Origin: Morinoia aosen
Lineage: Eukaryota; Arthropoda; Malacostraca; Amphipoda; Talitridae
DNA length: 64,000 bases
Direction: 5' to 3'
Assembly (NCBI GenBank): GCA_030386875.1
Contig: CM059575.1
Coordinates: 41,694,859-41,758,858 of the forward strand
Below, piece by piece: positions 4,847-39,439 of this stretch. Both the position numbers and the translations under genes were made by a program. Every line of letters begins with the position of its first letter. Position 1 is the stretch's first letter. The notes under the pieces are model-generated. The model saw nothing but the letters and a program-made list of their open reading frames with translations. It was not told the origin of the DNA and did no database searches.

Positions 4847-6025
4847 ACATATTATGGAGCAAAGAAGAAATTAAAACTCCTATCGGAAAATATAAAGAAT
4901 TTCGGTGTTTATGGAACTTTAAGGTCGCAGAGTGTAAAAACAGTGTCCAGGAAGATGCTTATAAAAATAGCATCTCACTCCCCAAATTATGATATTGCAA
5001 TAGTTAAAATGAAAATTCAAACACTGAGGGGCCAGGATAGGAAATAGCTCTCACTGTTAAAAAAAGTCGAAGAAATATACACTGCGTATGCAAACGAAAA
5101 ATTAATTACAGTGTAATTAAACTGCGCTATGTACATTGCTCTCAAGAAAAGTACTTCAAAGCACGGAAAACATTCGGCAGGTGGAATTAGAAGACTATTT
5201 AAATTAAAGGAAAAGTAAAAAAAAGTACACCTACAAATTAGTAATTGGTATTTATTGTTTCTTTCTATTTACAGTGTTTTTTAAGGTAATTGGGTAGTAT
5301 TCAAGTTTTTTAGAGTATTAGCGTTTTATTTCTTCAAATTATTCTGCAAATATTCTGCAAATTGTTCTCCCAAGTATTCTGTAAGAAATGCAAGAGCAAT
5401 ACTGACGATTGCTGTCTCTGGGGAAGGAGCGTCGTGTTGAGCGGCAGTGTAAAAGCAAGCCAGTGTACACTGACGCTCAATCCTCTCGTGGGAGGAGCTA
5501 TAGTAAGTTTACTATCGCTCCACACCACTAGTGTAAAATGAGCTTAACATCACTCCTTCTCTCACTTTGCTACCCTTTATTCCAAAATTCAGTAAAAAAA
5601 TTTTATAGCAAAGATCCATGCAGTCGTTGTCCTAGCTTGGATTGAACCTATCGATTGCTTTTCATGCAAGAACACACTAAAAAATGAACGGAAAGAGGAA
5701 CAGAAATAATTTCCAGCCGAGAAAGTCTATCTACTTTCACTTGTAATATGAGTTATTTTTTTTCAACGCCTACAATATTGATAAAACAAGTATTATTGTT
5801 TCAAAAAATCATTTCATCGAGCTGGATCTGCATCGATCATAGGCGTTCGGAAATGCTTTGCACGATGTGAAATGTAGTGAGCCAATTTTCCGAGTGAATA
5901 ATGCGAACACGAAGACAAAAGTGAAAAAGATAAACACATGTATGAGAACATTGTTCAATATTACCCACCACTTAGTACAATGATCATTCACATCTAGGTT
6001 AAAAGTAAACCTGAGCCTCACTTAC
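4847..6025. other. p53 intron sequence without recognised gene
   Basis: AT-rich intronic DNA. The segment 5400-5545 carries short GC-richer inverted pieces such as TTACACTAGTGGTGTGGAGCG (minus strand) and may be a worn MITE. No coding signal is visible. Confidence 0.4.
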
Positions 6026-6563
6026 AGTGCGCGGTCTTTTAGCAGGAATTCGTTGGGCAGTAAATAAAGAGACACTTGATTTCGTGGCAGTCTGGTCAGC
6101 AACTCCCGGAAGTTCATAACTCTCCGCAGACTGCGCAGCAAGCAGTCGTTTGATCCACTGTTCATTTGAGTCCAAGTTCAGCGAGTCCTGAGAATCACTA
6201 AGCTCATACTGAGATGGTTTGTTTTGCCATGTTATTTTAGCAGAATGACCAGCCAGACGTTTTTCATCTGAATTACCAAGAGCTGTTTTCTGCTCCGAGT
6301 CCGCGCTCCCTTGTCGATCAAGTGGCCTGGACAATTCAGGAATCGTTTCAAGTGTTTGGAAGACGGCTTGTGAGTTATCAAAAGCATCTGATACTTCGTT
6401 ACTAGAGGGAGTAGGCTTCGTCAGTTCAAATTCTTCTTTCACTGTTGAAATTTTACCGCTTTTTTTCTTCTTATTGGTGCCAGGATCAATTTTTTCTTTA
6501 GAGTCGCGAGTTGGTAGAGCGCAAACTTTGACGTAGAAATTCTGACGTCCCAATACTTGAGCA
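6026..6563 (-). CDS. p53: p53 exon: end of DNA-binding domain, basic region, linker
   Basis: The exon follows a strong acceptor (TTTGTTTCAG, minus strand), continues phase 2 from the 14349 donor, and ends in phase 0 at CGCACT followed by GTAAGT. It starts AQVLGRQNFYVKVCALPTRD, which matches the last beta strand and the start of helix 2 of the p53 core domain. The Lys at the human R273 position is also seen in the fly protein; the human R280 position is kept as Arg. A basic run KKKKSGK follows, probably the nuclear localisation signal, then a Ser-rich acidic linker of about 130 residues with several SQ or TQ-like pairs, and a second basic patch PAKRPRT at the donor. If the donor were skipped, translation would run nine more residues to a stop at 5999, giving a short isoform without tetramerization domain. 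Confidence 0.88.
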
Positions 6564-7457
6564 CTGAAACAAATGGGAAAAGTAGGTACAAGAAATTTAC
6601 TTTCTAATGAAGATGTATTTGATGAAAAATTGTTCACTCTTAATTTCTGTAGATTATTATTTACTCAATGATACATATTTGTTAGTAAATCACGGTATTT
6701 GAGTGTATCTTCATATAACGCTGAAGAATTAAAACCAGCAATATCATTATTGGGATTCTGTTTTACTTGCCTTAATTTAGTGTTGTTGATTGAATGTTTT
6801 CACAAGTTTTACTTTGAGAATTTTAAGTTCATTGAAAAATTCCACAATTCCACAAAAGAAAATATGCATAATCCTACGTAAGAAATCAAAAATAGAGTGA
6901 ATGATTACTCGAGTCTTGCACTTATTTTATACTTTCCGTCACAGAAATCGCAATGAATCACCAACAGTCGTAACTCTAGTAGTTTATTCAGTATGAAAAT
7001 GAGTTACATCAAATAAGGGAACATGCACTATTGCAATATGATGAACATATCAATTTAAATTAAATGTGCACCACTGCAGAGATATTCATCTCATTGTTAG
7101 TTTACTAAAAACAAATATAATAAAATACGTACTGATTGAATAAAAAGCTAGTCGTGTGCATGTACTTTGTAACATATTTAACTATTATCAATAATTGTTC
7201 AATGGAGAAGAAAAGTATACAAAACATTGAATTTGAACGCTTCTATCTTATCAATCCCAACCAAACCTGTTAGTGTAAGAGAAAGGGAAAAATGCTTTAT
7301 CAAAATAGACCAAGAAAGTAAAGTAATTAACATTGGAGGAAAAATGAGGTGCCGAAATTTATTGATTAGAAATAATCCCAGTGAATAATTTTTTTCACAA
7401 ATAACAAGGTGAATTATACTAACCTATTTAAGTCACACGATTCACTTCAGAACACGT
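6564..7457. other. p53 intron sequence, no recognised gene
   Basis: AT-rich intron between p53 exons 14349-14556 and 6026-6563. I see no open frame with recognisable similarity and no clear repeat. Confidence 0.4.
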
Positions 7458-12726: not shown

Positions 12727-12929
12727 TACTGACTGGCTCAGTCGAACCCCCTTTATTGTCTACTGACTGGTTCAGTCGAGCCGCGTTTATTGTCTACTGA
12801 CTGGCTCAGTCGAGCCCCGTTTATTGTCTACTGACTGGCTCAGTCGAGCCCCGTTTATTGTCTACAGATTGGCTCAGTCGAGCCCCCATAATTGTCTACT
12901 GACTGGCTCAGTCGAGCCCCCATTTAATT
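12727..12929. repeat. 34-bp tandem array, six units
   Basis: Six units of 34 bp start at 12727, 12761, 12795, 12829, 12863 and 12897, the last slightly short. The consensus begins TACTGACTGGCTCAGTCGAG and ends with a C-run and TTTATTGTC. Each unit contains the inverted repeat GACTG, GCT, CAGTC, so a single strand could form a row of small hairpins. Units 3 and 4 are identical; units 1, 2, 5 and 6 differ by a few bases. It lies in a p53 intron. The unit lacks separating unique spacers, so it is a minisatellite and not a CRISPR array. Confidence 0.9.
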
Positions 12930-19439: not shown

Positions 19440-20765
19440 ATATATATACGATATCATTAGCTAAGTATTTGCAAAATATTCGAGAAAATTGTGAATAACA
19501 AAGTGTATTCTTATTAGGAAGAAAAATCATTTCTCTATGATGAACAATTTGGTTTTCACTTTAAAAAATCAACAACACAGGCAATATTAAATCATTTACA
19601 ATACCTCTATTCTAATATAGATAAAGTAAAGCTGGTTTCCTTTGTATTTCTTGACTTTGAAAAACATTCGATTAATTGTGTAGACCATAACATATTACTC
19701 TCGAAACTCCACTGATATGGCATTCGAGGGGTTGCTCATGATTGGTTCAGATCATACCTAACAAATCGGAAGCAATACGTTGTCATTGACGATGCACAAT
19801 CGGAACTACAGACAATTAGCCATGGCGTTCCACAAGGATCTGTCCTTGGGCCTCTCCTATTTCTAATTTTTATCAATGATAGTATTAAATCGACATCATT
19901 TCTCAAATTCATACTTTATGCCGACGACAGCACACTTTTTGCAATCCTTTCAAACCAAAATCCCGCTCTATTTGCGGAGAGAATAAATACCGAACTCCAT
20001 AAGGTTTCACTGTGGCTTAAAGCTAATAAAATAAGCCTTGATATCGATAAAACAAAATATATTACATTCTCATACACAAAAAACATATCTCTCCCACGCA
20101 TGAAAACGGGCGAAAATGAAATCGGAGAAGCCAACTGACGAAAGTTCCTAGGCATCATAATAGATAAACATCTGACCTTCAAAGAGCTCATTGCTCATAC
20201 GAGTATTAGTACGAAGTTATCTAAATCCGTCGGAATCCTCGATAAAGTGAAAAATTTTCTACCTGAAAAAGCCTCGCAAATACTTTACTGAACGCTCATT
20301 TCACCATGCTTGCAATACGGAATAGAAGCATGGCACGGAACTGATAAAAATAAAACCAATAAATTTTTTTCGGCAAAAAATAGCCATCAGATCGGTAAAG
20401 AAACTAGAATATAATCCTCACACAGATGATTCATTTAAAAGTTTACAAATACTTAAACTTACGATTCTCTACAAACTCTCCATATGTAATTTCATGTATA
20501 AAACATCGACCAGTGATGGCGACAATAGCCTCAAACAACTATTAACTGCACAAACTGATCATCACGACCATTTAACCTTTAATGAAAGTAAGTTTATGCT
20601 TCATTATAATTCGAAAGCTCGGTCAGAACACAGTATCCGCTTCGTTGGAACCAAAACCTGGAACTCAATCTCTGTGGAGATCTGTGAAAGTAATTCTTAC
20701 AAAGTATTCAAAATAAATCTCGAATCTCATTTCCTATCAGAGTATTCGTAATGTAAGATAACCAA
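19440..20765 (+). mobile_element. LINE remnant, CR1/L2-like reverse transcriptase (copy 1)
   Basis: This is a worn 3' half of a non-LTR retrotransposon. Translation over several frames gives FDFEKHSINCVDHNILLSKL-like text near 19640-19710, GVAHDWFRSYLTNRKQYVVI near 19730, HGVPQGSVLGPLLFLIFIND near 19820-19880 and FILYADDSTLF near 19910 with the catalytic YADD intact. Later peptides (LHKVSLWLKANKISLDIDKT, LQYGIEAWHG) match the thumb and C-terminal region. In-frame stops at about 19712, 20136 and 20290 show that it is dead. A relative lies in opposite orientation at 45730-48010. Clade naming is from general resemblance only. Confidence 0.82.
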
Positions 20766-22344
20766 GTCAAATATTGTCTCCTACATGACTGGTCCTGATA
20801 GGGTAATTTGCCATGGTTAATATCGTTGATCTTCAGTCTACTGTTAAATCGTTTATAGAATATACTACTAACATCTACCCCATATAAACTATTTTGTAAA
20901 ATGAAGCATCGAATGTCGAGTTAACTATTTCATTGATCAGTCTAATGCGTAACTAGGTTTAAGTGAATTAGGTTAAACATTATTGTACACTTATAGGATA
21001 ACGTTGTGGTAGGATGCCCTAGAAGTCGCCGAACTTATTCGGGCCCACAGGTAGCTATACTCAAATTTTACCATTTTACTAGACTCAAGAAACAATCTAC
21101 TTCTGTATCGCTTGTGGTAAAATAAATTGTTTGTTAAATCGTTTGTTAAAATTGTTTATATTTCTCTTAAGCCAGGCAATAACGCACTGTCTCTATTGCT
21201 TATAAGTTTATATCATTGTGGCACAAGCGAAATGATGCTTGCCCCTTTAATTGTCCTTCAAACCATTTTTTATTTTAAATTGAAAACCCGCTTAAAGGAC
21301 GTTTTGAGCAAAGCATAGGCGCAAAACAACAAGCACACCGAGCCGTTTGTAAATGATCAGTAAATGCCTTTGCAATGTGCAATCAATTAAGAAGATCAGA
21401 AATATTCACTGCTAGTTTAACTTTTTTATCAGAGTAGCTGTATAATTTTTTTCCTTTGCTCAATACATGTGCACTTTAGAATCAGTTGTGAATCAGATGT
21501 GAATATCATAGCGTCAGTCCCCGCCGATGTTGCCAGAACCGTAGTACTCGGTTGCTGGCGTGGATATCGTCCCGGCATGTTGCTTGCTTCTTGAGACTCG
21601 CCCATGCTTTCCTTCGCGTCGTATGTCAGGAAGGAACTATTTTTGACTCTCATCAACAACGCAGTCGATAATGTTTTCTTATCTATAACAATTTAATTTT
21701 AATCGAATAACCATCCAGCAATTAATGAATGCAGGCGTTAATTCTTGTCTGCCAGGTTGAGAGATGCCAAAGAAACGCAGTTCTAGGCGTTTTAATAATA
21801 CTTTGTAAGCTTACAATAGTCACTCCACTCGAGAGTACGTAAATCGCTCTTTTTCTTATTTCATAATCTAGCTACTTCTATATACTCAAAATATTTTTTC
21901 ACGGCGATCCAGAATGAAATTTACCACGAGTTTAAGACCAAATTGCTCTCATTTATCGAACTCAAAATTACTAACGAAATGTAAAGCTAAACTTCATTAA
22001 AACTTCCTTTTGACGCCCATTCCGTTTATAAATATGCTGAAAAAGAGAAAAATTATTTTCTCTCCATATGTAACATATATATAGCTGGGAAAGTTGCACA
22101 AGACATATACACTTAAATACAAAAATTGGAGCACTTAGGGAAATATCATGAAACCAAATCTGGCTTTCTACCCCTCGAATATAGAATAAAAAGGTAGGTA
22201 TTAAAGTCAATAGTGTGGTAAAGGATGCATTTTTGTCGTTTGGCAGCACTGCAGTACTGACGAGCGACCCGCCTTAGCTAAATTTAACCCAAAGGTATGA
22301 TAACGCTGCATTATGTCAAAAGTTAAAACAATTTATGTTTATTT
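20766..22344. other. p53 large intron, no recognised gene
   Basis: AT-rich DNA. A few short open frames (for example minus 21429-21659) show no family signature. Confidence 0.4.
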
Positions 22345-22828
22345 TCCCTTCAAAAGATTGAAGTTAAGCTGGTAAACAAGAACCTATAAGCCATTAAAAT
22401 ACGTTTAGTAGGAACGAAACAAAAGAGTTCTGAAGCCGCACGAAGTACCTACGTCATTTCCTATTCGATTGCCCTTCTATCACGTAAGAGAGACTGGACG
22501 CAGCTTCCAGTGCTTGTCGAAGTTTAGTGCCTTACTTTTCACTGTCGGCCTCGCACACTTTATTCCACTTTTGATGTGTGATTACACTGGCGAACACTTT
22601 CTCTGTAACTTTGCGTTGTATTGGACATTTTAATTGATTCTGAAGGAGTTTTAGGCGCTGATTTCAAATCTGAAATTAATATTCTACAAGCTCTAGTTTG
22701 TTTGCAATTTGAGGTTAATGAAATTGTACAAATGTGAACTTGCGTAAGCCACGTATAATCATTTTCACGTCCATACATTTAAATAGCTTCTAATATTTTG
22801 ATCATTCTTCTTTCGTTCCAGTTCAAAA

Positions 22829-23027
22829 ATGGCTTCCAAAAAGTGACATCATTGCAGAAACAAGCTTGATGCCTTCTGCTACATATGCGGATGCTACACA
22901 ATAAATCGTCAGAGACGTAACATATACTTGTTCGTCAAGCGTGCCTACAAGGCATATTTTCAAGTTCATCTAGGTGATCAAGACAAGCAATGGTCTCCTC
23001 ATGTTGTTCGCCACAATTGTGAGAAAA
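22829..23027 (+). pseudogene. Orphan gene family, 5' coding part, interrupted
   Basis: An ATG at 22829 opens MASKK followed by a TGA; reading on gives HHCRNKLDAFCYICGCYTIN and then RQRRNIYLFVKRAYKAYF, VHLGDQDKQWSPHVVRHNCE. The Cys/His spacing (C-x2-C in FCYICG, HNC later) suggests a small zinc-binding module. I recognise this N-terminus as that of a multicopy, functionally unassigned protein family found in many arthropod genomes. The frame stops where the Penelope element begins (about 23028) and resumes at 26996. A polypyrimidine/AG site (TTTCGTTCCAG) precedes the ATG. Confidence 0.65.
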
Positions 23028-23850
23028 TCTAAAACTGAATCTGCATATATGCGTTTTTTCTTATAATGAAAAGTAAGGCGAAAATCGCTTTACGAATGCC
23101 ATTTTATTATTACAAATTGTTAAGTCTAAATGAATGAAATTAAACGCTTCGAACTAAACAGTTCATCTTCCCCCTAACAAAAAAAAAAGAATTCTGCGAC
23201 AAAACAAAACGAGTATGAGTAAATTAAAACTACACTATACAAAAGAATACTTCAACATATACAGAAAATAGTCGTAGATCTAAAATTGAAAATTAAAAAT
23301 AAAACAGAATAAAACCTAAACTAATGATCACGTATTTGCAACGAGAAGAGGATAAGCACTTTGAGTATCATTTAGAGCTTAAAGATGTATAGCGACTCAA
23401 GGATGCGTAAATCAATCATGTGAGGGGCACCTGCAAGGATTTAAAATGATCCACGGAAACAAGGACGTTACAGTTTTCAACATGCGATCGAACAGAGGAC
23501 AGTGGAGGGGAACCAAGCGGACGACCGGTTCTACAGCTGCGCCCAGAGTGCTCGGCTACTCTGGACATAAGAGTACGACAGGTGGAACTTATGTACTGGG
23601 ATTCACAACGTGAACAACTAAACTGGTAAACCTCAGAGGAGCATATAGCAGGGATAGCTTATCCTTAAAGCGTAAAAGGGAACCGATTGTGAAATTATTG
23701 ACAAGAATAGAATGGATTTTAAGTTGTGGGAAAAACTTGCTGATTAGGAGTTGAACCTCCTGATATTACTTAATAGATTGGTGTTCAAAGAAAGGAAGCT
23801 TGAAGAAAAACTTCTGTTGATATGGTTAGGTACATTGAGAGCATGAATAA
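23028..23850 (-). mobile_element. Penelope-like element, inverted 3' fragment
   Basis: This is the 3' part of the Penelope-like element, lying in opposite orientation to the main copy. Its minus strand reads from the C-terminal part of the reverse transcriptase (NRSFSSSFLSLNTNLLS near 23780) through the GIY-YIG region (23420-23640) to the 3' UTR ending near 23028. The outer side is joined to the orphan gene at its CACAATTGTGAG codons. Confidence 0.78.
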
Positions 23851-23944
23851 TATTTTGTGTAGAGATCGAAAATTTAAAGAAATTACAGAGCCAGCCAATA
23901 CACAAATTTTCTATGCGCATCGAGGACAAATAAACAATTTTAAC

Positions 23945-25790
23945 TTCGTTTAAATAATGATTGTTACCTTTCTGAAGAGGATTACAGCAGACTCAGTGCG
24001 ACGGGCTCAGGACCCGGTACTTTGTATGGTCTCCCCAAAATCCATAAATCAGATTTCTCCACTAAATTTCAGTTTAGGCCAATTTTCACAGCTTTCAACA
24101 CCCCGAGTTTCAACCTGGCTAAATATTTTGTTCCAATCTTAAAATCCCTTACTACGAATTCTTATACCGTTGACAACTCAAGGTCTTTCGTAGAAAGCTT
24201 ATCAGACTTTAATAATACTGCAGCTGACCTGTTCATGGCTTCATTTAACGTAGATAATCTGTTTCCTAATGTTCCGTTGACTGAAACCATTGAAATCTGC
24301 TTAGCCAAATTATTCTCAAATTGTTCGGTAATTATGGGGTTTTCCCGTAAGATTACGCAGGAACTGTTAGCTGTTTGCAATTCCTTTTTCATCTTCAGCA
24401 ACAAGTATTACCAGCAGGTAGACGGATTGGGCATGGGTTTACCTCTCGGTCCAACTTTCGCCAATATTTTTATGTGCCATCATGAGGAAAGCTGGTTAAA
24501 TGGCTGTCCTAATCTTTTTAAGCCGGTTGTTTATAAAAGGTTTGTAGACGATACACTTGTTCTTTTATAAGAGAGATCTCACGCTGATCTTTTTCTCAGC
24601 TATTTGAATTCACGTCATAAGAATATTAATTTTACGAGGTAAAATGAAACGAACAACCGTTTACCGTTTCTGGACGTCAATGTTTGCAAAGTTGATAAAA
24701 CTTTCCAATGTTCTGTTTATAGGAAAGGCACTTTCTCGGATTTAGGTACTAGTTATTTTAATTTTTGTGCGACCCCTTTTAAGCTCAGCGGCATTCGAAC
24801 TCTCATCCATAGAGCGTTTAAAGTTTATTCTAGCTTTCGATTTTTACATCATAAATTCGCCTTTTTACGAAAAAATTTTCTCAGGAATGGTTTCCCTTTG
24901 TTTACTATCGATAAACAAATTGATAAATTTTTGTCTAAAATTTATGATCGCACGCTGGCACTCCAACCATGTAGTCAACAGAAGTTTTTCCTCAAGCTTC
25001 CTTTCTTTGGACACCAATCTGTCAAGTTAAATCAGGAGGTTCGACTCCTAATCAGCAAGTTTTTTCCACAACTTAAAATTCATTCTATTCTTGTCAACAA
25101 TTTCACAATCGGTTTCCTTTTCCGCTTTAAGGATATGCTGCCCCTTGCTATGCATGCTCCTCTGTAGTTTACCAGTTTAGTTGTTCACGTTGTGAATCAC
25201 AGTACATAGGTTCCACCTGTCGTACTCTTATGTCCAGAGTAGCCAAGCACTCTGGGCGCAGCTGTAGAACCGGTCGTCCGCGCTTGGTTCCCCTCCACTG
25301 TCCTCTGTTCGATCCCATGTTGAAAACTGTAACGTCCCTGTTTCCGTGAATCATTTTAAAATCCTTGCAGGTGCACCTCACATGATTGATTTACGCATCC
25401 ATGAGTCGCTATACATCTTTAAGCTTAGACCCCCTCTAAATGATACTCAAAGTGCTTTTCCTCTCCTCGTTGCAAATACGTGATCATTAGTTTAGGTTTT
25501 TTATTTGTTGTATTTTTTAATTTTCAATTCTAGATCTACGACTATTTTCTGTATATGCTGAAGTATTCTTTTGTTTAGTGTAGTTTCAATTTACTCATAC
25601 TCGTTTTGTTTTGTCGCAGAATTCTTTTTTTTGCTGGGGGGAAGATGAACTGTTTAGTTCGAAACGTTTAATTTTATTCATTTAGACTTAACTATTTGTA
25701 ATAATAAAATGGGCATTCGTACAGCAATTTTCGCTTTACTTTTCATTATAAGAATAAGACGCATCAATGCGGATTCAGTTTTAGATTTCC
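23945..25790 (+). mobile_element. Penelope-like element, main copy, 5'-truncated
   Basis: A Penelope-like retroelement read on the plus strand. The reverse transcriptase shows YGLPKIHKSDF near 24022, FMASFNVDNLFPNVPL near 24230, GLGMGLPLGPTFANIF near 24430 and YKRFVDDTLVLL near 24530, all hallmarks of Penelope RT. After a stop at 24568 it continues in frame with a thumb-like region to about 25165. Next comes a GIY-YIG-type endonuclease region (YQFSCSRCESQYIGSTCRTL near 25170-25220), later frameshifted. The last about 290 bp are 3' UTR ending in ATAATAATAAAATGG. The RT N-terminus is missing, so the insertion is truncated and dead. Confidence 0.85.
24022..25167 (+). pseudogene. Penelope reverse transcriptase, interrupted by stops
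   Basis: The open part 24022-24570 contains the RT fingers and palm with the catalytic VDD in YKRFVDDTL. A TAA at 24568-24570 and another stop near 24640 interrupt an otherwise continuous reading that reaches MLPLAMHAPL at 25165, just before the GIY-YIG region. The expected N-terminal RT region is absent. It belongs to the 23945-25790 element. Confidence 0.8.
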
Positions 25791-25984
25791 TCACAATTGT
25801 GGCGAACAACATGAGGAGCCCATTGCTTGTCTTGATCACCGAGATGAACTTGAAAATATACCTTGTAGGCACGCTTGACGAACAAGTATATGTTACGTCT
25901 CTGACGATTTATTGTGTAGCATCCGCATATGTAGCAGAAGGCATCAGGCTTGTTTCTGCAATGATGTCTCTCTTTGGAAGCCAT
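25784..25984 (-). pseudogene. Orphan gene 5' part, inverted duplicate
   Basis: A second copy of the orphan gene's first 65 codons, inverted relative to 22829. It is better preserved: MASKERHHCRNKPDAFCYIC reads without the stop found in the other copy, through HLGDQDKQWAPHVVRHNCEE, and then runs into Penelope sequence. The copy travels with about 480 bp of upstream flank (to 26469). Confidence 0.7.
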
Positions 25985-26469
25985 GCTTGAACTGGACCGA
26001 AAGAAGAATGATCAAAATATTAGAAGCTATTTAAATGTATGGACGTGAAAATGATTATACGTGGCTTACGCAAGTTTACATTTGTACAATTTCATTAACC
26101 TCAAATTGTATACAAACTAGAGCTTGTAGAAAAATTTATTTCAGATTTGAAATCAGCGCCTAAAACTCCTTCAGAATCAATTAAAATATCCAATACAACG
26201 CAAAGTTATAGAGAAAGTGTTCGCCAGTGTAATCACACAGAAAAGTGGAATAAAGTGTGCGAAGGCCGACAGTGAAAAGTAAGACACTAAACTTCGACAA
26301 GCACTGGAAGCTGCGTCCAGTCTCTCTTACGTGATAGAAGGGCAATCGAATAGGAAATGACGTAGGTACTTCGTGCGGCTTCAGAACTCTTTTGTTTCGT
26401 TCCTACTAAACGTATTTTAATGGCTTATAGGTTCTTGTTTACCAGCTTCACTTCATTCTTTTGAAGGGA

Positions 26470-26995
26470 TCAGCTGTAGGATCAGCTCCATTTCCGGTTC
26501 TACAGCTGGGATCAGCTGTAGAACCGGTCGTCCGCTTCTTTCCCCTCCACTGTCCTCTGTTCGATCCCATGTTGAAAACTGTAACGTCCCTGTTTCCGTG
26601 AATCATTTTAAAATCCTTGCAGGTGCCCCTCACATGATTGATTTACGCATCCATGAGTCGCTATACATCTTTAAGCTCAGACCCCCTCTAAATCATACTC
26701 AAAGTGCTTCTCCTCTTCTCGTTTCAAATACGTGATCATTAGTTTAGGTTTTTTAATTGTTTTATTTTTTATTTTTAGTGTTAGATCAACGACTATTTTC
26801 TAAATATGTTGTAGTATTCTTTTGTATAGTGTAGTTTTAATTTACTAATATTCGTTTTGTTTTGTCGCAGAATTCTTTTTCTTTTGCTGAAGATGATCTG
26901 TTTCGTTCGAAACGTTCAATTTTATTGATTTAGACTTTAATATTTATAATAATAAAATGGCCATTCGTACAGCGATTTTCGCCTTACTTTTCATA
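26470..26995 (+). mobile_element. Penelope-like element, third 3'-end copy
   Basis: A direct repeat of the 3' end of the main copy (about 25255-25730), starting within the GIY-YIG region after a scrambled junction. It runs through the 3' UTR to TTTCGCCTTACTTTTCAT and rejoins the orphan gene at ATTGAGGAAATGC. The junction 26494-26527 is a perfect 15-bp palindrome with a 4-base loop. Confidence 0.82.
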
Positions 26996-28510
26996 TTGAG
27001 GAAATGCTTCAAGACAGGACCAAAAAAAAACGCAAAGGTTTGCCTTTTGGGGTTCCAACGATTTGGCGCGAACCCTAAACCATGTAACTGACATATTTCT
27101 GCACGGCAAACACAACCGGTGTTGGGGGGAAAAACCGATATAAGATTACGTATCCGAACATTCCCTCAGCTGTTCGGCCTGCTCCGCACTCCGAAGAAGT
27201 TCCAGTTTTCAAAGGTTTTATTTCATTGGATGATAAAGACATCGGACATGATACAAGCGAACAAGAACAGTTGTGACAGTGAATTGTCGGAAAAGTGTTC
27301 ACAATCGGAGAACTGTTTTTCAGACACTGAACCTTTCCCTGTCCCCAATTGCCTCTTCCTCAGGCTGAACTGAATGATTTAGTGCGGGATTTAGGTCTTT
27401 CAAATAAACCAGCAGAACTTTCGGCATCAAGATTACATGGCAGAAATCATGTTAATCACTCTGTTAAAGTTTCACATTTCAGAGAGCGTGACCCGCTTTT
27501 TGTGACGGTCTTTTCAAAAGACAAGCAGTTTTTTTACTGCCCTAGCATCCCAGACCTTCTCAAAGAACTGGGTCTACCTTTATAGCCCCGCTGAATGGAG
27601 ATTCTATTTAGACAGTTCGAAACGCAGTCTAAAGCGTGAAACCATAATCGCAATGTTTATGGAGCAGTATCTGTTGGTCACTCAGTGCATTTGCGGGTAG
27701 ACTATGATGATTTGAGAGGGATCATGGATTTATTGAAGTATCATGAGCACAAATGGATTATTTGTGTAAACTGTAAAAATGGCCAAATTTCTTCTTGGAC
27801 TACAGAAAGGTTTCACTAATTCCATGTTAACTCTGTATGGGGGACAGCCGAGTACGAGACAGACGTTGGGTTCAGAAGGACTGGCTTATTCGTAACACCC
27901 TTGAAGCAGGCATGCCAAATATCATACAAGACCCAATTGTAAACAGAAATAAGATCATATTTCCTCTTTTTCACATCAAATTAGGTTTGATGAAGCAATT
28001 TATCAAGGCACTGGAAACCGAAGGTGGATGTTTCCAACACATCCCAGCTTTACCAGGGTTCTCATATGAGATCAAAGCAGGCTTGTTGGAACTTGGATGG
28101 CCCTCAGATTCAAACCCTAATTCGTGATGATCAGTTTGTTGCTGCGATGACCGCTCTAGAAAAGGCAGCATGGTTATCCTTTGTGGCAGTCGTTCAAAAC
28201 CTCCTTGGAAACAATAAGGCGGAGAACTACAGTGAACTTGTGAACAGAATGCTCCTCGCTTTTCGTGATCTCGGATGCAACATGAGCATCAAGCTTCATT
28301 TTTTGAAGTTACCTTGATAAGTTCCCTGACACCCTGAGGGCTGTGAGAGACGGACAAGGAGAACGATTCCACCAAGATCTAAAGGTCATGGAAGAAATGG
28401 AAGAATGCTACCAAGGGCGCTGGGACAAAAGAATGATGGATGACTACTGTTGGAACATTAAACGAGATTGCCCAAATGAAATGTACAAACGTAAATTGCT
28501 GCCTGAATAA
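26996..28510 (+). pseudogene. Orphan gene family, main coding part, decayed
   Basis: The continuation of the frame begun at 22829. Translation across frames gives RKGLPFGVPTIWREP, then a C-x2-N block, PSAVRPAPHSEEVPVFKGFI, later VDYDDLRGIMDLLKYHEHKW near 27700, IIFPLFHIKLGLMKQFIKAL near 27955, FVAAMTALEKAAWLSFVAVV near 28135 and AENYSELVNRMLLAFRDLGC, GQGERFHQDLKVMEEMEECY, RWDKRMMDDYCWNIKRDCP, stopping at TAA 28508-28510. AATAAA overlaps the stop. The C-terminal half keeps long open stretches, but several frameshifts and stops (for example at 27583) disrupt it. The family is multicopy in arthropods with unknown function; a transposon origin is possible. Not assignable to a reaction. Confidence 0.65.
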
Positions 28511-30315
28511 AGTATACATAGAAATTGATAAGCTTTCATCAGCTGTGTTGATGTTCTGAACGATGCTAATCTAACTTTGGGATGTTTTCTAAGAAACGCT
28601 ATCAGGAAATACGGCACAATCAAGAATAGTGTAATTTACTCTGAAATCACATTTCAATGTTATGTTTCTTTTGCCTCAATAAATATACAGAAATTACTTT
28701 CATATCGTTATAAGATTCAAGTTAACAAAAGAATTGTGGCTGATTGACACCACAATTTTCTATAATAACGAAAAATTTAAAAATAGAAATGTCAAATTAC
28801 AGAAAATCTTTAGCTTGCAGACAAAACCGATCTCAAATTTGAAATCAACACACTCAAGTTGGCTGTAAAAAGGTTTTCTCTCAATACAACAAGATGAATA
28901 CTCCTCAATATCATCCGTTATTTGACAGCACGGCGTGCACGGGTGTGCTGATACAGGCGACAAGCTTCTATTTGGTCAATTTTAAGACTTCTATGCGATT
29001 GTTGCCGGTCTTATACTAGGTGATTAGTCTCGTGCGTAAGCCAGGGAGGGTTATTTGTCGGTTCCAGTCGCTTTATTGAGATGTGATACTCTGAGGCTGA
29101 GAGATTTTTTTATGTTATTTTTATCGTGATAAATTGTTGAGTGTTTTTATTCCTTTGTTCCTCTTTAAATCTTCGAATTCAACTCAGCCGAGCTAGCTCC
29201 TCTTTCCTGAATGGCATTCACAGTTTATAACATGAAGGGATCCAAATCAAGTGATGGAGCTCGAGTAAATTCAATGAGGCATTACCTACTAAAAATAAAT
29301 CGTATATTCATTGTCAAAATCTGCAAATTTTTAGGTGCTCACATAATTCGTAAACAATTAGTGGCACCATAAATGCTACTCAGTATGCGTATGCAACGAA
29401 TATATGTGGTGATTATTATTCTTTAAATACTATTTTCGCATGAAATTTTTGATGAAATCATAGTTACAAAGTTGTTATATTTTTTGACGCAGCCATGCTC
29501 GCAGCAACGGATTTAAGAATATAGAATGAATTTTTTGTGGAATATTTAAACATGCAAAACCTCAATAAATTTAGGTTTCGACAGAAGTAATAACTTCCAT
29601 AAAAATGAATTACTTACAATTCCAATTTTTTTCACGAAGTCTATTTTCTGTGTGAATAAGACGTAAAAATCTTCCGATATCTCTTTTGCATTTGTCACAC
29701 GGAGTTTGCAATGTAATTTCATCCTCATGTAATAGTTTACATAACAGTTCTATAAGCTAATGAAGTAATATTCGGTTCCAAGCCCTGGTATTCCACGTTT
29801 TCCACGTGGTATTCCACGATCAGTTTATAACATGACGGGATCCAAATTAAGTGATGGAGCTCGAGTAAATTCAATGAGGCATTACTTACTACAAATAACT
29901 CGTGTATTCATTGTCAAAATCTGCAAATTTTTAGGTTTTTTGAAGCTTATCTGTGAATAGATTGGAATGCAATTACGTTTTACCCTAGTCCTGGAGATCA
30001 CATGGTGATAATATGTCCGGCACCTCTGTGAAATTTATTCTGAGGTCCAGAGTCATGATAACGGGGTCTAATATATTATATTTGGTCCGGTCGATTCCAG
30101 AACATGCTGTTCCAGAGATTTGTATTTAAGAGACCAATTGGCTAGTTTCGAGAGGCTCGATTTTATCTTGAAGCACACTCAATAAAAGGAAAATTGAAAT
30201 CCCACCAATTGATATTCCGAGGGGATTACGGAGAATATTGTCAAAGTGATCATAAACTTCCTCATCGTCGGTTGCTGCACATGTGCTCGCTCGCTCCCTA
30301 CAGACGACTACGGCC
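28511..30315. other. p53 large intron with a 117-bp direct repeat
   Basis: No gene recognised. Segments 29220-29336 and 29820-29936 are direct repeats (each starts CAGTTTATAACATGA and contains GATGGAGCTCGAGTAAATTC), differing at about eight positions. An open frame at minus 30126-30368 has no recognised domain. Confidence 0.6.
29220..29936 (+). repeat. Pair of 117-bp direct repeats, 600 bp apart
   Basis: The two copies (29220-29336, 29820-29936) share CAGTTTATAACATGA through CTGCAAATTTTTAGGT. The stretch between them is unrelated AT-rich DNA. The second copy is preceded by short reiterated TTCCACG motifs (29790-29820). The origin is unknown. Confidence 0.8.
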
Positions 30316-31425
30316 TTGAAGGTGACCATCCAAGGCCCCTGCCATGCCGCTGTCGCTCCGATGAGCATTTTTCATGTTTTTGTTGGAAAAAGATCCTTAG
30401 GTGGTGGACAAATCGGTCCTAAAATTTTATGGCGCTACAGACTGGGGTAAGGGAACAAAAAATTTTAATTTTCTACCCGAATTCGACCCCATTTAAAAAG
30501 AAAAAAAACGGGAAATGGATAATTTCACAACATAATTTTGTTAGAAATGCTTCAAAGATTCTGAAACTGTTTTTGGTTTTGTTCTAGCATGAAAAATCGA
30601 TGAGTTGATACGTCTTGAAATATCAATACAAATGAACTAAAAAACCAATATGCCAATTTTCTTCAAAAACTAAGGTCTGAATAACAAAAATGAATTAAAG
30701 AAATTGTGTTTATTTTTCAAAAGGTTCATATTATAGTCAAATTTCATAAGAATCATACTGAAAAAATAAATAATATGCTCAATTTTTTTTTTTTTTTTTT
30801 AAATCACAACTCACAGTGTGAATATGAAGTTATGCATGTAAATTATCGAAATAAAAATTAAAACTGCATTCAATTACATAAATTGTCCATTATATTACAC
30901 TACAACAAATAATTTTGTTTTGGCTTATACCCAAAACACATAACTTTCAACATTCAAACCGTATCAACTCATTGAGTTTTAATGCTAGAACAAAACCAAA
31001 GACAGTTTTAGAATCCTTGAAACATTTCTAACAAATTTATGATTGCTTTCTTCCAAATTTTAGAAATGAAATATAGTTACATAGCTCAAAACCCAAAAAT
31101 AATTTTTTGTGATGTAATAATTAAATATCACTTATCACAAAATTTTCTTTCAAAATTTTACGATTTTACATCATACTTTTGTTAGAAATGGTTCTAAGAT
31201 TCTAAAACTGTCTTTGGTTTTGTTCTAGCTTCAAAACTCAATGAGTTGATACGTTTTGAAATACACATATAAATGTACCAAAAAACTAATTTTTCGTAAA
31301 AACATAAGGCCTAAATCGAAAAATTGACATGAGTAAAAAGTGTTTACTTTCAAAAAATACATATACTGGCCAATTTTTAAACGAATCGGACGAAAAAAGT
31401 TCAAAAATCCGGATAGTCACCTTAT
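30316..31425 (+). mobile_element. TTAA-type non-autonomous element, copy A
   Basis: A 1.1-kb non-coding repeat also present at 48201-49307 and, diverged, at 32755-34155. Its ends are imperfect inverted repeats (GAAGGTGACCATCC on the left; ATAAGGTGACTATCC on the reverse complement of the right). Inside, a motif of about 75 bp (TTCTAAAACTGTCTTTGG, then GTTTTGTTCTAGCAT) occurs at about 30545 (plus), 30965 (minus) and 31185 (plus). The conserved 5' region reads GGTCCTAAAATTTTATGGCG. There is no protein-coding frame. The flanking TTAA seen in copy B is mutated here (TTGA and TTAT). Confidence 0.72.
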
Positions 31426-31876
31426 ATAATAGTGGTCCTTCGACGTGTATGAATTATTACACCGCCGCCTCTCCTGCTGTCCGACAGCTTGCCAATATTG
31501 CAGTTAGCGTTTTTTTTATAGTTATTACTAAACTCTTGAGAGTTTTCAACCATTTACTTTAAAACTATGCTTAGTATTTTGCATTAACATTCATGCTATC
31601 CCAGTGAGTTAGTTACCTTGATGACATTTATTTCAACACTTTGTGTTCGTATGGCAAGCTTAACCCAACATCAACAGAGCTGAAGATATTTATTAGTTTA
31701 ATGCTTACTCTTTCAAAAAGCCCTGACAGGTGGTTACCTCCCATCACCAACCAATCACTCAAAATTATACCCAAACAGTAGCATTCTCTCCCCATCCATC
31801 CTTTTCCGTTAAAACTACTTTCATTTCAGACACACTCTGCGTCAAGCCCTCTTCTCTAACCTTCTTTCAAACATCG

Positions 31877-31936
31877 CATTCATTCATTCATTCATTCATT
31901 CATTCATTCATTCATTCATTCATTCATTCATTCATT
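31877..31936. repeat. (CATT)n microsatellite
   Basis: About fifteen uninterrupted CATT units. It is the cause of the Ile-His-Ser repeats in an overlapping open frame, which is not a gene. Confidence 0.97.
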
Positions 31937-32754
31937 TGAATCAAGGGTAGTATATCATTATGATTATTATTGTGAATATAATTATTCACTTCGATATCTT
32001 TGGTGCCCGCATTTAAATGGCTATAGATGTGGAGAAAATTTGAGAGGAATAAAATTGTCAGCATTAAACACGTTCGTTCCACACTTTCAGTAAAGCAATT
32101 ACTCGAGTGAATGATGTTGTGTATCATTGCCCAACTAAGTAAATGATTTTCGTACTTTAACGAATGCAATCAAATGTTGTCAATTTTGGTGGCCAGTGTA
32201 CCTCATGTGCATTGACTAATAAAAAAAATAGACTCAAGAAAAGATAAAATTTTAAAAAGTGAGTGAGAAATTACTGACAGTAGTGAAAATAAGTAAATGT
32301 AGGAATAAATCCGTTGCGTACTGCGGTTATTGCTGTAACAGGCAAACCCTAAAAAGCTTGCTTGTCAAGCAGATGTAGTTTGTGATCTTCAATACTTTTA
32401 CCCATTCTTTTTACTTCAATTTCGAACGATGATTTTTTAACTTTAAGGCAAATTAATTCTTCTAGCATCTCCTCCATCTTTGCCTGGTACTTCGGCAAAA
32501 GCAAGAACTACTCTCCCGTGGAGCAGAACATATGGACATCCACTCTTATGCTAACACGTGTCTTGTCGGTCCGAGATCGTCTAGATAGAAAATTAATTTC
32601 GCACATTCCGGCGAGAATGTCGTTTAAGACGTACTACTTGTTTATTCTATTTTGTAATGAACTAGAAACAAATTTATTGTTGAAGACAAAGTGAGAGATA
32701 TAAATAAGGCCATTGCAAATGTCGGTCTGCCTTAAGTTCAGCAACCTGACTTTT
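31937..32754. other. p53 large intron, no recognised gene
   Basis: AT-rich DNA between microsatellite and the third TTAA-type element. Nothing recognised. Confidence 0.4.
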
Positions 32755-34155
32755 TTGAAGCCCAACTATCAACGGCCTAGTGATTTTTTTATCATAAAAA
32801 TTTTGTTTTTTCTTTAATCGGAAAATGATCCTTAGGGTGTGGGTAATTGTGCCATGAAATATTATGGCGCTACGGACACCAGAACCCCCCCCCCCAGGAG
32901 GGGTTCAAAGGGGACCAAAATCATAAAAAATTGAATTTTTTTTTTTGATCGGAAAATGATCCTTATGGTGTGGGTAATTGTGCCATGAAATATTATGGCA
33001 CTACGGGCACCAGAACCCCCCCCCCCCCCCCGGGGGGGTTGAAAGGGAGCCAAAAGCATAAAAAAATCCATTTTTTTGTTGGAAAATGATCATTACCAAC
33101 ATGGATTTTTGTGGCTTGGATTTCCTCGCGAAGATTACGCCCCACAAATGGAGGATTTTGTCGGCAATGTTGTGCTGAAAATAGTGTCTGTCAACAATTA
33201 ATAGTGTCTGTCAACATGTGTTTACTTATGTGTTTCTATAATAAACGGAAAAAAACATATATATGCGTAAAATTTATTTTTTACTTGGAATTTTATTTCT
33301 TTATTTCTTCTACCTATATATGGGGAAAATTATTATTATAAATGGAAAACATTTCGCCCAATAACACAAAAATAATCCAAAGTTGAACAAAATCATCTAC
33401 TGCTGTCCAAAAAACCACAAATTTATGACGGAAAATGTTCGCGTCTTGCAACAACAGCTACATGGTGAGTACTCAAATAAAATATAATATTTCTATAAGT
33501 TTTTATGCACGATATTTCTTATGTTACATTGAAATTCCCAAGGAAAATATTGCACAGTATTCTTTCATAAAAATAGATCAAAGAAACTGTATTCATGTAC
33601 AAAAATTGTCAATGACATTGAAATTCAATAGTATATCTTTGTTTTTGGGCTCTCCTGAATAATAATATATTTCAACCATTTAAATCGTATCAACTCATTG
33701 AGTTTTGATGCTAGAACAAAACCAAAGACAGTTTTGGAATCCTTGAAACATTTCTAACAAAGTTATAATAAGTCTCTCCCAAATTTTAGGAAACAAAAAA
33801 AGTTATATGGCTCTAAACCCAAAAAGTAATTGTTTGTGATGTTATTATAAAGTATCGCTTGTCACAGAAATTTCTTTTCGAAATGTTAAAATTTTAAATT
33901 ATAACTTTGTTAGAAATGCTTCAAGGATTCTAAAACTGTCTTTGGTTTTGTTCTAGCATCAAAATTCAATGATTTGATACGTCTTGAAATATACATAAAA
34001 ATGTATAAAAAAAAAAAATTTTTCGTAAAAAAATAAGGCCTAAATCGAAAAAATGACACAAGTAAAAAAGGTTTACTTTCAAAAAATACATATAATGGCC
34101 AATTTTCAAGCGAATCGGACGAAAAAAAGGTCAAAATCCCGGACGGTATCCTTAA
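32755..34155 (+). mobile_element. TTAA-type non-autonomous element, copy C (expanded)
   Basis: A diverged copy of the same family. The right end reads GGACGGTATCCTTAA at 34141-34155 with TTAA intact, and the left end begins near TTGAAGCCCAACTATC. The 5' conserved segment (GGAAAATGATCCTTA ... ATTATGGCGCTACGG) is present two and a half times with a period of about 125-130 bp (32816, 32945, 33075). Each full unit ends in a long C-run followed by a G-run. The 33110-33660 interior is poorly conserved; the motif pair at about 33685 (minus) and 33910 (plus) is well kept. The open frame at minus 33910-34209 lies over this motif and is not considered a gene. Confidence 0.6.
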
Positions 34156-35135: not shown

Positions 35136-37920
35136 CTGATAATTGTTAAAATTTTAAGTGAAAAATGTTTTATTTTGTACTAAATTGCTAGATCAAGCAG
35201 CTTTCCATTTTACATACATAATTATAAATTTTGAAACAACAGACGTGGAAAATGAAGTCAAATAATTTAATTTTACAATTAATCTCTAGCACACTGAAAA
35301 GACAAGACAATCCACTGAACTTAAAGTTTTTCAACTGAACTCGTTATTTACACCCTCCTGGACGTCAATTGAATTGCATCCTATTTTTTCAGCTATAAAA
35401 GAGTTCACAAATATCACCGTCTTTGTTTCCAACAACCAAAAATTGCGTCATTAAAATGTCTTGCACAAGTTTCTCAGCATGAGATATCAAACAATGCTTT
35501 TTATTTCAAAGGGGAAATACAAAGAAGTATACGGTAAATTTTTAAAACGCTCGACATTTTCGTAAACGGTATAGTATTTTAAATCTCTGAGTCACTATTA
35601 AAAGTGAAAAAACCCAAAGTTGGGTTAGGTAACACACATGCCTTGAAATAAGATGCAGTTAATTTCAGACGTGTGTAAAGCAACTCTTCCTAATGGATTA
35701 AATCTGCTATTCACGCCCTTTCCTCCCGTCTTGACTTTACATTCCCTTTGCTACTTACGGCCGCTACTTGGGTACATGCCGGAACTGTTAACGGAGCTAT
35801 AAGTTCGCATAAAACACTAAGAACTTAATGATACACACAAGTAGCACGAACTCTCGAACACTGCATGCACTATACAGTTGTTTGAGAACATTATGGTCGG
35901 ACAATATCTTATCTGTGCATTGATAAGATGTGACGGCACATTCAGCCAATCACCTGATGGCAAAGTTTGCACCCGTTGTAACAATGAACATCGTTTTCAT
36001 TCTGCATTTTGAGTTAACATTAAGTCAGTCTACTATAAGATCTTTAAGCACAATAATGACACAATTTATGAGACGATTCGTATCGCTTAGAGTGTAGAGG
36101 ATAAGCAAGCAAGGCAGAAAATAATTTTTTGCGGTGTTCTTATTGTATGGGTAATCAGTAACCCAGCTGTTAACTCTAGAGTCGTTTGCTCGTGATGAGT
36201 TGGCATAATACACATTGTATTCTGCATAGAAATACACGCAATGCTAGGGTGCAAATGAAACTAAACATACTTTTCCATACAGGGTAGGGATAAGTTCCTG
36301 GACTAAGTTAATTTGTAATATTTGTACCGGAGGACAGTATAATAAAGTAAAAATCATCCCCACACTATTGTACTAAATACCAGAAAAACAAAATGAACGT
36401 CCGTTTATCAATGTACCTTCCCGTTGCATTGATTACTTTCTGAAGCCATCCTCTGCCACTGTGAACAGGGACACGCAGTTTCTCTTTCGGTGGAGTTACG
36501 GTTTGGCGTTTACTCATTTTCAGAATACTAAACAAGGCTTTAGCTACCAATTCTATCCGAAACGTGAAAACAAGGCATTAGCAATTAACTGAGTGCTATT
36601 TTTTTGGTAACGTCAAAAATCATTAGCCCTTCTTTCAAAATGAAAAATTGTCCGGGGAATATTTTCACGCTCAGAATTTAAAAACGAAAAATATTGATGC
36701 ATAAATTTTTTTTATTTAGAAAGTATACAAGTCACTTCTACTATATTTGTACGTATTCTTCAAAGGATGTCTTATAACACATTTTTGAAAACAGTTGTTT
36801 AGTCCGAAAATTTTTCATTTTGCATCACGTTAAATGACGAAGTGTGCAGAACTATAAAATTCTTTTAAAATCAAAACATAACAATAAATGACGCTAAAAA
36901 CCATAACCATTTGTTTGATGATCAGGCTTGTCACTTGACTAATAGTCAATGAAAAATTCCTAGCGTTAACCGAAAAATGAATTCAAATTGATCGCATCAG
37001 AAAACATTCCTACACTACATTTAGAATTTGAGCGATAGAATAAAATTAGTTTCAAACAACAACCTGCAGATAATTGACTGATAGTGCAAAAAAACTCATT
37101 GCTATAAGATTAAATAATTGTCGTGCAATTAAACGTTAAGAGCAGTCTCGTTTTTTTACTGTTCTGTGAGGAAATTCTTTACATCTCCAAGCAAAGATAA
37201 ACGTGTAAATTCAATTTTGATTGGGCTTTTCAGTTTTTTGTGAATATTTTTCAACATGCACGTGTTCAGAATGACTGCACACATGACTAGTTTTTGATTC
37301 TCTAGAGTTTCCGGAAAAAGCAATGTCTTGCGTTATGTTCGTTTCCTCTACAATAAATGTCCTCAACGCATCGGGTTTTTCATCAAAGTATTACTTCTTG
37401 GATTTTACTTACTACGCTAAGTGCAACACTATAGGGTGACACCACTAAGTACAGTAGAGATAATCCGTTCAAAGTGAATGGCTGAATTTTTTCTCCGTAT
37501 TGAGGAAATGTGATTTTCCTCAAATTTTCAGTTGTCTCAAGTTGCCTGATGAGTTGAGCAAATGCAATATTGCGGCATCTCATTTCATCAAAAAAACTCA
37601 TAATCCATAAAGTGAAACAAGTGTAAGATGTGTTAGGCTTTCGGGTTTATGACAAGAATCGAGAGCGTAGTCGTTGAAAAGGACGCAGTCGAAGTTCCAA
37701 GATTAAAAAAATGCAAATTGAGGATAGCAAAATCAAGTTGTTGTCTCAGTTGATCTTGATGAAATTGTACAGTATGATCGTTGCACTGCCAAACCGAACT
37801 AATGAAAGCCAAACCAGGATTGAGGAAATAGACAAGTTTACTTTTAATTGATCATACGCTAAGTATCAATGGAAAAATTTAGAAAATACTTACTTGCATA
37901 AAAAGTTTTTAAAAGTTTTC
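35136..37920. other. Upstream p53 region, no exon identified
   Basis: The missing first p53 exon should lie here or further right on the minus strand. The frame at minus 36365-36550 (MSKRQTVTPPKEKLRVPVHS) has a GT at its end but in phase 2, which does not fit either acceptor of the 34272 exon. No other candidate convinces me. Confidence 0.4.
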
Positions 37921-38283
37921 GAACTATAGTTTACCATGGACAGGGATAAAGAATTGGAACTATAATTTACCATGGACAAGGATAAAGAATTTGGAACTAT
38001 AATTTACCATGGACAGGGATAAAGAATTTGGACCTATAATTTACCATGGACAGGAATAAAGAATTTGGAACTATAATTTACCATGGACAAGGATAAAGAA
38101 TTTGGAACTATAATTTACCATGGACAGGGATAAAGAATTTGGAACTATAATTTACCATGGACAGGGATAAAGAATTTGGAACTATAATTTACCATGGACA
38201 GGGATAAAGAATTTGGAACTATAATTTACCATGGACAGGGATAAAGAATTTGGAACTATAATTTACCATGGACAGGTATAAAG
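37921..38283. repeat. 37-bp tandem array, ten units
   Basis: Ten head-to-tail units with consensus GAACTATAATTTACCATGGA followed by CAGGGATAAAGAATTTG. Units differ at one or two positions (GGG/AGG/GGA in CAGGGATAA); the first is 36 bp and the last is truncated. Because 37 is not divisible by three, no repeat protein is encoded. Each unit contains an NcoI-type palindrome CCATGG and a TATAAT string. The low divergence suggests recent expansion. It lies upstream of the recognised p53 exons. Confidence 0.95.
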
Positions 38284-39439
38284 AAGACAGACTATTTCTG
38301 TCTAATTAGTTCAACTTGATAAACACATTTTAAGTAAATGAGCTGCCTGCCCGCATATCAGAAATTAAAAACCACGAAACTCAAAACTACATAAATTTTT
38401 TAAGATAAAGTTCAAGTCAAGAAATAAGTGGAACAAAATAATGAATAGTAACAAAATTAGCAATGAGTCATACCCATATTTTTAGTGATAGCCTCAAAAA
38501 TTCGTTGTGGCATGTGCGATGTGAGGGTTTCGAATACGGTTAGAAGATTACTTCGTTTATTCTAGCGGTTAAGATGGCGCCCACGAAGATAATTTACCGT
38601 CTCAAATTGTATCATTTCAATTAACATTCCCCACTATCTATCTCCAAACGTTCTTAGCGGATTCCTGAAAAAAAAACATTAGTCAGACGTTGTTGATTAC
38701 TGCATCGAGAGTGCATCCGGTGAAAAGAATACGAGAGCCCTCCACAGCAATAAAAGCTCTGTAATGCGTCGACATAACCATCCTTTTTTGACGTCGTTGC
38801 ACGACCTGAAATTTCGTTGCGCCTCTGACGTAATACCTCTGCCACTGTACCGCTTAGAAAACGTTTCAGGGGCGACTTTTAGCCGTTTCAGTAGCGAGGA
38901 AATTCATCAAAACTGATCTGGGTTGAATATTTTCTCATCAGAGAACAAAACTCTTTTCCACTTTCAACGTCCCATGTTTGGTGCGCTCCCTGGTTAACTC
39001 TGAACGGTCAACTGAGGACGTAGAAAAGATGAAGCTCTTGAAGAAGCGCATTTTAATTTTCAACTCCCCTTGCTTCAGGTGTCGTACAATGGCTATTGGA
39101 CAGCATTCTATATAATTGAGGGTCTTGATCTGCCTCGAAGTTCGTCCCTTATATTGACCGACAACCACGCAAATTCTCGTATTCAATGATTGTGAATCTT
39201 TTTTGGTCTACCACTATATTTCACAGTTCCATAACTGTCAAGGTTTTTCATGGAATGGTCAACCTTTCTTTTACTGTATTTAACAAAATTTGCAGTGTGA
39301 CAACTCAACAACAAAACTCCGTGCAAAGGTCGTTTTTTTCTCTTTTTTCTTTTCTTATTTTCTCATTTTCTTTGCTATTTCACGTTATTGTTTTCTTTCT
39401 CCTTTCATTCTATCGTTTCATATCTGGGTCTTCCTTGTT
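38284..39439. other. Spacer before LINE, no recognised gene
   Basis: AT-rich DNA. Minus frames at 38654-38845 and 38938-39186 are open but show no known domain. The T-rich stretch at 39330-39420 could be LINE 5' UTR. Confidence 0.4.

Follow-up and report, generated by a model that had tools for sequence, protein, structure and literature searches.

In a 64,000-nucleotide stretch of the genome of the amphipod Morinoia aosen (assembly GCA_030386875.1, contig CM059575.1, positions 41,694,859 to 41,758,858; hereafter the window), an insertion of a Penelope-like element contains an inverted copy of the DNA that flanks its own target site, and the element and its flank together form a palindrome of 4.1 kb. 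We propose, with a probability of roughly 0.6, that the Penelope insertion broke in its rightward arm some time after it had formed and was mended by foldback copying of its own end and of the adjoining flank. The parts of the structure follow one another in the order flank (+), Penelope 3′ end (−; Pleft), longer Penelope copy (+; the main copy), flank (−) and third Penelope 3′ end (+; Pthird), and the reading frame that is interrupted by the insertion picks up again at position 26997. A preliminary description of the window had already reported the Penelope-like identity, a palindrome of this size, three 3′ ends and a local flank copied in inverted orientation, all of which were borne out.

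The palindrome arms were detected by a mechanical inverted-repeat search and then aligned over their full length. Positions 22345–23820 align end to end with the reverse complement of 24975–26469 at 95.6% identity (65 differences over 1472 aligned sites, with 27 gap columns). Including the 1154-bp spacer between the arms (23821–24974), the palindrome is 4125 bp long, and its outer limit is marked by the pair 22344/26470, which is a mismatch. The divergence between the arms varies by segment, climbing from about 2% (outer flank) through 4% (the interrupted transposon, here called H) to 7–8% (inner Penelope part). Relative to the majority sequence of 13 H copies (445 columns), nine changes are confined to the left arm, seven are confined to the right arm and 21 are common to both. 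Because the arms carry independent changes and the flank is single-copy (see below), a collapsed assembly is a bad fit, and an origin by chance fits badly as well; the segment-wise divergence also makes unlikely the collapsed or chimeric assembly that the preliminary description had held up as a possible refutation. The 4.1-kb palindrome is a real, well-preserved structure. No sign of a function was seen in it. Among the matches listed in our genome searches, the palindrome, the flank and the join occur at the window locus only, and a foldback transposon with long inverted repeats was rejected for this reason.

The genome searched comprises 1.99 Gb in 29 contigs, with the window on contig C20. 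A search with 22345–23100 matched both arms fully and, at 82–87% identity, 38 other places over about window positions 22581–23028 (the best 40 of 763 candidates). Upstream of the start of H, the flanks look unrelated between copies, as judged by eye at 13 of the 38 places. Some form of CACTGGGGAACACT opens most H copies, and the 3′ end is a more or less exact inverse of CACTGGGGAACACT in six of the eight copies for which it was read (exact in L018). Given the high copy number, the differing upstream flanks and the inverse terminal sequences, H is a high-copy DNA transposon, about 2.35 kb long and bearing short inverted repeats at its termini, and the host gene that had been named as the target in the preliminary description was rejected on these grounds. 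For the outer 240 bp of each arm, the genome search returned only the two arms and four weak places at 68–73%, and this flank is thus single-copy. The inverted copy of about 680 bp reported earlier therefore stands, at 684 bp, but not as the 5′ region of a host gene: 444 bp of the tract come from H and the other 240 bp from single-copy local flank.

Some further features of H were noted. Its protein contains GDQDKQWAPHVV and WREP and, by reading, an intron-like stretch lies before the first exon (22585–23028 and 26997–28910; L009–L021); three pieces of the protein gave no Pfam family above the cut-off. A 3-bp target duplication of H, TTA, is possible. A short repeat at 21002–21170 also lies about 0.9–2.3 kb past the 3′ end of four H copies, in the opposite orientation in L010, L018 and L019 and in the same orientation in L012.

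The left part of H stops at 23028 and the transposon resumes at 26997, with 9 bp repeated at the two edges (Table 1). A third copy of this target site, inverted, lies at 25785–25793, the junction of the main copy and the inverted H. The inverted flank is therefore contained in a single insertion with a target-site duplication at its two edges; this outer 9-bp duplication and the third copy at the copied junction count in favour of the break repair proposed here. Two independent insertions at one site were rejected, because the copied junction includes both the duplicated site and single-copy flank. Penelope 3′ ends reach 23029 and 25784, not 23057. A 38-bp tail is present on Pleft and on the main copy and is absent from Pthird, which ends at 26996. 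With the left end tailed and the right end tailless, Pleft and Pthird resemble the paired ends of a Penelope insertion of the ordinary kind, in which the main copy and the inverted flank would be an extra piece. The main copy matches RVT_1 at 23944–24567 with an E value of 2.1e-6, just below the cut-off.

The divergence of the segments bears on their relative ages. The H arms stand 7.0% and 6.5% from the 13-copy majority, the 13 copies themselves standing at 6–9%, which would make H about 6.7% old. Pleft and Pthird differ at 35 of 466 sites (7.5%), or about 3.8% per lineage. In the part inside 25255, Pleft differs from the main copy at 22 of 278 sites (7.9%). The arms of flank and H differ at 21 of 683 sites (3.1%), significantly less than Pleft and Pthird (p = 0.0007) and than the inner arm (p = 0.0017). 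Per lineage, the ages are about 6.7% for H, 3.8% for Penelope and 1.5–1.8% for the flank arms, with the duplication of the H arms at about 1.8%. Across the entire tract that would have been copied (outer Penelope, tail, H and flank), 50 of 1194 sites differ (4.2%; p = 0.009 versus Pleft/Pthird and p = 0.013 versus the inner arm). Slight differences between these counts reflect differing alignments and limits. The flank arms clearly postdate the insertion, whereas the start of the copying is less certain. This comparison of arm-to-arm with copy-to-copy divergence, which the preliminary description had called for, casts doubt on its statement that element and flank were copied together, if that refers to the time of insertion. 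Pleft and the main copy also share six to eight substitutions and a 5-bp insertion (25636–25640) against Pthird and the young copies.

At the join, the homology of Pthird begins with CAGCTG at 26513, or with GCTGGG (6 bp) at 26505, corresponding to main-copy position about 25259 (25251). This match of the Pthird start to main-copy position about 25251–25259 points to a break near 25258. The flank copy is separated from 26513 by a 43-bp filler, most of which (query 71–104) is covered by no other listed match (42 matches; best 40 of 672). CCGGTTCTACAGCTG (26494–26508), GGAT and CAGCTGTAGAACCGG (26513–26527) form a perfect 15-bp hairpin, and the 91 nucleotides surrounding it fold at a z score of −6.4 relative to shuffled versions, with 0 of 200 shuffles as low.

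Table 1. Segments of the Penelope insertion and its target (window coordinates)
Feature	Position	Strand	Evidence
Single-copy flank, outer part of left arm	22345–22584	+	Only the two arms match well genome-wide; arm alignment
5′ end of transposon H, starting CACTGGCGAACACT, interrupted by the Penelope insertion	22585–23028	+	Comparison of H copies
Left target-site duplication TGAGAAAAT, with a single change relative to TGAGGAAAT	23020–23028	+	9-bp overlap of left and resumed parts of H
Pleft, left Penelope 3′ end with tail	23029–23820	−	Comparison of Penelope copies
Original rightward Penelope arm, 5′-truncated, with reverse transcriptase region, up to the putative break	23821–25258	+	RVT_1 match below cut-off; 22/278 versus Pleft
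Part of main copy probably copied from Pleft, ending in 38-bp tail (25747–25784)	25259–25784	+	5-bp insertion 25636–25640 common to Pleft only
Inverted target-site duplication (25785–25793) and inverted H 5′ end	25785–26229	−	Comparison of H copies
Inverted single-copy flank, outer end of right arm	26230–26469	−	Arm alignment; genome search
43-bp filler at join; 26494–26508 pairs perfectly with 26513–26527	26470–26512	+	Folding; genome search
Pthird, third Penelope 3′ end without tail; putative right piece of the broken arm	26513–26996	+	Comparison of Penelope copies; start uncertain by 8 bp
Right target-site duplication TGAGGAAAT	26997–27005	+	Comparison of H copies
Remainder of transposon H; right end degenerate, placed by eye	26997–28910	+	Comparison of H copies

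These observations suggest the following sequence of events. Transposon H would have inserted into single-copy DNA, and a GIY-YIG-type Penelope-like element would then have entered H at the 9-bp duplicated site, giving two outward 3′ ends head to head in the usual form, the left with a tail and the right without; Pleft and Pthird would thus share their origin in one element. Well after this insertion, the rightward arm would have broken near 25258. The broken left end may have annealed to the inverted Pleft arm and been extended through the 3′ end, the tail, the target site and 444 bp of H and on across 240 bp of flank. Candidate enzymes for this step are those of polymerase delta- or theta-type synthesis. 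Once freed, the extended end would have been joined to Pthird, the opposite side of the break, which had presumably folded back at CAGCTG, leaving the 15-bp hairpin. The segment boundaries would be explained by one such event, and a tail on the main copy but not on Pthird is expected if the end of the main copy was copied from Pleft. One feature that marks foldback repair can be recognized: the inverted duplication extends a pre-existing inverted repeat, Penelope arms being inverted in other insertions that have no inverted flanks. A second, a copied tract younger than the repeat that primed it, is clear for flank and H, by the p values given above, but not for the outer Penelope part alone.

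Several observations weigh against this reconstruction. Three or four sites contradict a sister relationship of Pleft and the main copy. A blind change-point scan was not significant (permutation p = 0.095, best step at 25166), and the break point was set from the start of Pthird only after the windowed divergences had been seen. For the Penelope part alone, the age difference is not significant either, whether inner and outer tracts are compared (p = 0.16) or outer Pleft–main with Pleft–Pthird (p = 0.18). In the multiple alignment, the outer Penelope tract differs at 29 of 511 sites, against 21 of 683 for flank and H (p = 0.029); in the pairwise alignment, the count is 24 of 511 (p = 0.22 versus flank and H). 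Given this higher divergence of the outer Penelope tract, copying may have started further out than 25258, or the rates may differ. Furthermore, no second event of this kind was seen. Nothing shows that Pthird comes from another subfamily, with no relative closer than 92% in a small sample (the best 40 of 1698).

The behaviour of the Penelope family elsewhere in the genome provides a point of comparison. A search with the Penelope 3′ end gave 1992 candidates, the best 40 of which are at best 91–92% identical to the window copy. The 29 copies examined represent 13 distinct sequences, 0–0.25% from their own majority, and many copies lie in 2737-bp tandem units. Among the matches listed, there are 65 clusters apart from the window's own; 16 have units on both strands within 6 kb, and all 16 of these place minus units to the left of plus units, with the 3′ ends facing outward. 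Tandem units and head-to-head order are both features of Penelope pseudo-long terminal repeats (pseudo-LTRs). A young unit has an intact frame, 838 amino acids from the first methionine, that begins within the 3′ repeat; its RVT_1 match (E = 2.3e-9) is above the cut-off, and a match to GIY-YIG (PF01541, residues 734–763, E = 0.087) is below it, in a C-terminal position that fits. No hammerhead ribozyme from Rfam was found at the gathering score in the window or in L056; weaker matches were not sought. Young, near-identical 2737-bp arrays of minus then plus units, for example three and three, were observed at L053–L056 (C26:8.83 Mb, C13:0.75 Mb) and at other loci; these have one target-site duplication, and both strands seem to have been primed, with tandem units on each side.

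Four of the other insertions could be read at both ends. By our own reading of the alignments, the target-site duplication is 13 bp on C13 (ATTATTACTAACG), 8 bp on C26 (ATTCATTC) and 12 bp on C8 (TATAGGAATAAA), and is unclear at C20:63 Mb. In all four, one end has a tail ending in GATTCAGTTTTAG and the opposite end is shorter; a one-ended tail of 30–40 bp is an optional trait of endonuclease-containing Penelope-like elements. Outside the window, ATT follows 8 of the 12 tailed ends that meet host DNA and is lacking at the other 4; ATT is the preferred cut of an anole Penelope-like element (PMC11167929). The preliminary description had proposed a search for other insertions with inverted flanks. 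None of the four two-ended insertions contains an inverted flank copy, the left flanks of C26 and C13 being only 237 and 299 bp long, and their only non-self match, 31 bp at 84% at C20:63, lies inside the flank itself. Eight one-ended loci, which cannot fully show the feature, gave matches inside their own flank only, among at most six matches listed for each. At L045 and L024, inverted repeats are limited to the Penelope arms, without an inverted flank. As the four insertions are young copies, they speak against a regular by-product of insertion and say nothing of how frequent later repair is.

The main alternative, an origin of the inverted flank during retrotransposition itself, is rather unlikely. 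In that case, complementary DNA (cDNA) primed at the left nick would have folded back and primed its own second strand; synthesis would have continued across the junction into H and the flank, after which the end would have become attached to the cDNA on the right. Self-priming has been proposed for Penelope elements from inverted structures (PMC3846280), a Penelope-like protein has been shown in vitro to cut both strands and to extend them (PMC11167929), and in Pen1_Av of Adineta vaga the last pseudo-LTR is preceded by 0.9–1.5 kb of captured host DNA, the position seen in the window (PMC3846280). However, one age would then be predicted for the flank arms, the inner arm and Pleft/Pthird, unless Pthird had its origin in another RNA and rates differed, whereas the observed differences are 21/683 for flank and H against 35/466 and 22/278; the start position of Pthird is also left unexplained. 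It is unlikely, too, that Penelope hairpin-primed second strands commonly run past the element into host DNA, such that palindromic flank capture is a regular by-product and the source of host spacers elsewhere; at this locus the capture would have occurred upon insertion, with Pthird derived from a different RNA.

Transduction was considered as well, in which a Penelope sense transcript reads through the Pleft 3′ end into antisense H and flank and the chimeric RNA is reverse-transcribed into the existing insertion. The copied flank is what lies downstream of the Pleft 3′ end, but Pleft as it stands is without the reverse transcriptase region present in the main copy, no separate duplication is seen around the extra piece, and re-insertion beside the source would be needed, all of which makes this route very improbable. 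An assembly artefact, arising from a chimeric or adapter-missing read or from merged haplotypes, is hardly credible: palindromes are a recognised artefact class, but the arms differ by 2–8% depending on the segment, with independent changes on each, the join carries templated filler, and the 1.99-Gb assembly is in 29 contigs.

The foldback repair that we favour can be set beside known systems. Penelope/Poseidon-type elements of A. vaga (Pen2a_Av and others) have a frame of about 840 amino acids that starts in the 3′ repeat (PMC3846280). They resemble the window insertion in their direct and inverted pseudo-LTRs, in the tail at one inverted end and in target-site duplications of 8–10 bp (9 bp here); the accessible part of that report does not describe an inverted local flank inside an insertion or say that the host spacers captured by Pen1_Av are inverted copies of a flank. 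In yeast, foldback inverted duplication takes place at double-strand breaks near inverted repeats, where, as proposed for the window, annealing beside the break and fill-in synthesis copy the flank in inverted orientation; in yeast, however, the outcome is a hairpin-capped end and a dicentric chromosome (PMC10622511), whereas here 684 bp of H and flank would have been copied and rejoined. Also described in yeast are short inverted insertions beside a break that are primed by microhomology and in which end joining captures the other end; most are about 5–34 bp (PMC11724301). The window would combine a 15-bp insertion of this sort with about 1.2 kb of copied sequence. The literature searches, which mostly did not cover subscription papers, showed no account of a Penelope insertion that contains its own flank in inverted copy. 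The parts and processes are known; as far as our searches go, their combination in a Penelope insertion is new.

The locus offers a datable record of likely break repair inside an inverted retrotransposon, in which segment ages, target sites and templated filler are read from one place. If the process is general, head-to-head Penelope insertions would be break-prone sites that can copy neighbouring DNA in inverted orientation, and would thereby supply host spacers by a route that does not involve retrotransposition. With nearly two thousand candidate copies at first look, this idea can be counted.

Several other repeats lie in the window. Two inverted copies at 19522–20160 and 46368–47006, 78–85% alike, belong to what we take to be a reverse-transcriptase element, with a frame at 19716–20138. 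Tandem arrays are found at 12727–12926 (34 bp, about 6 copies) and 37917–38285 (37 bp, 10 copies), and several diverged direct and inverted copies of one unnamed repeat family occur at 30342–34139 and 48215–49207. An open frame on the minus strand at 5999–6664, perhaps a host exon, has a weak match to the p53 DNA-binding domain (E = 3.7e-4, below the cut-off).

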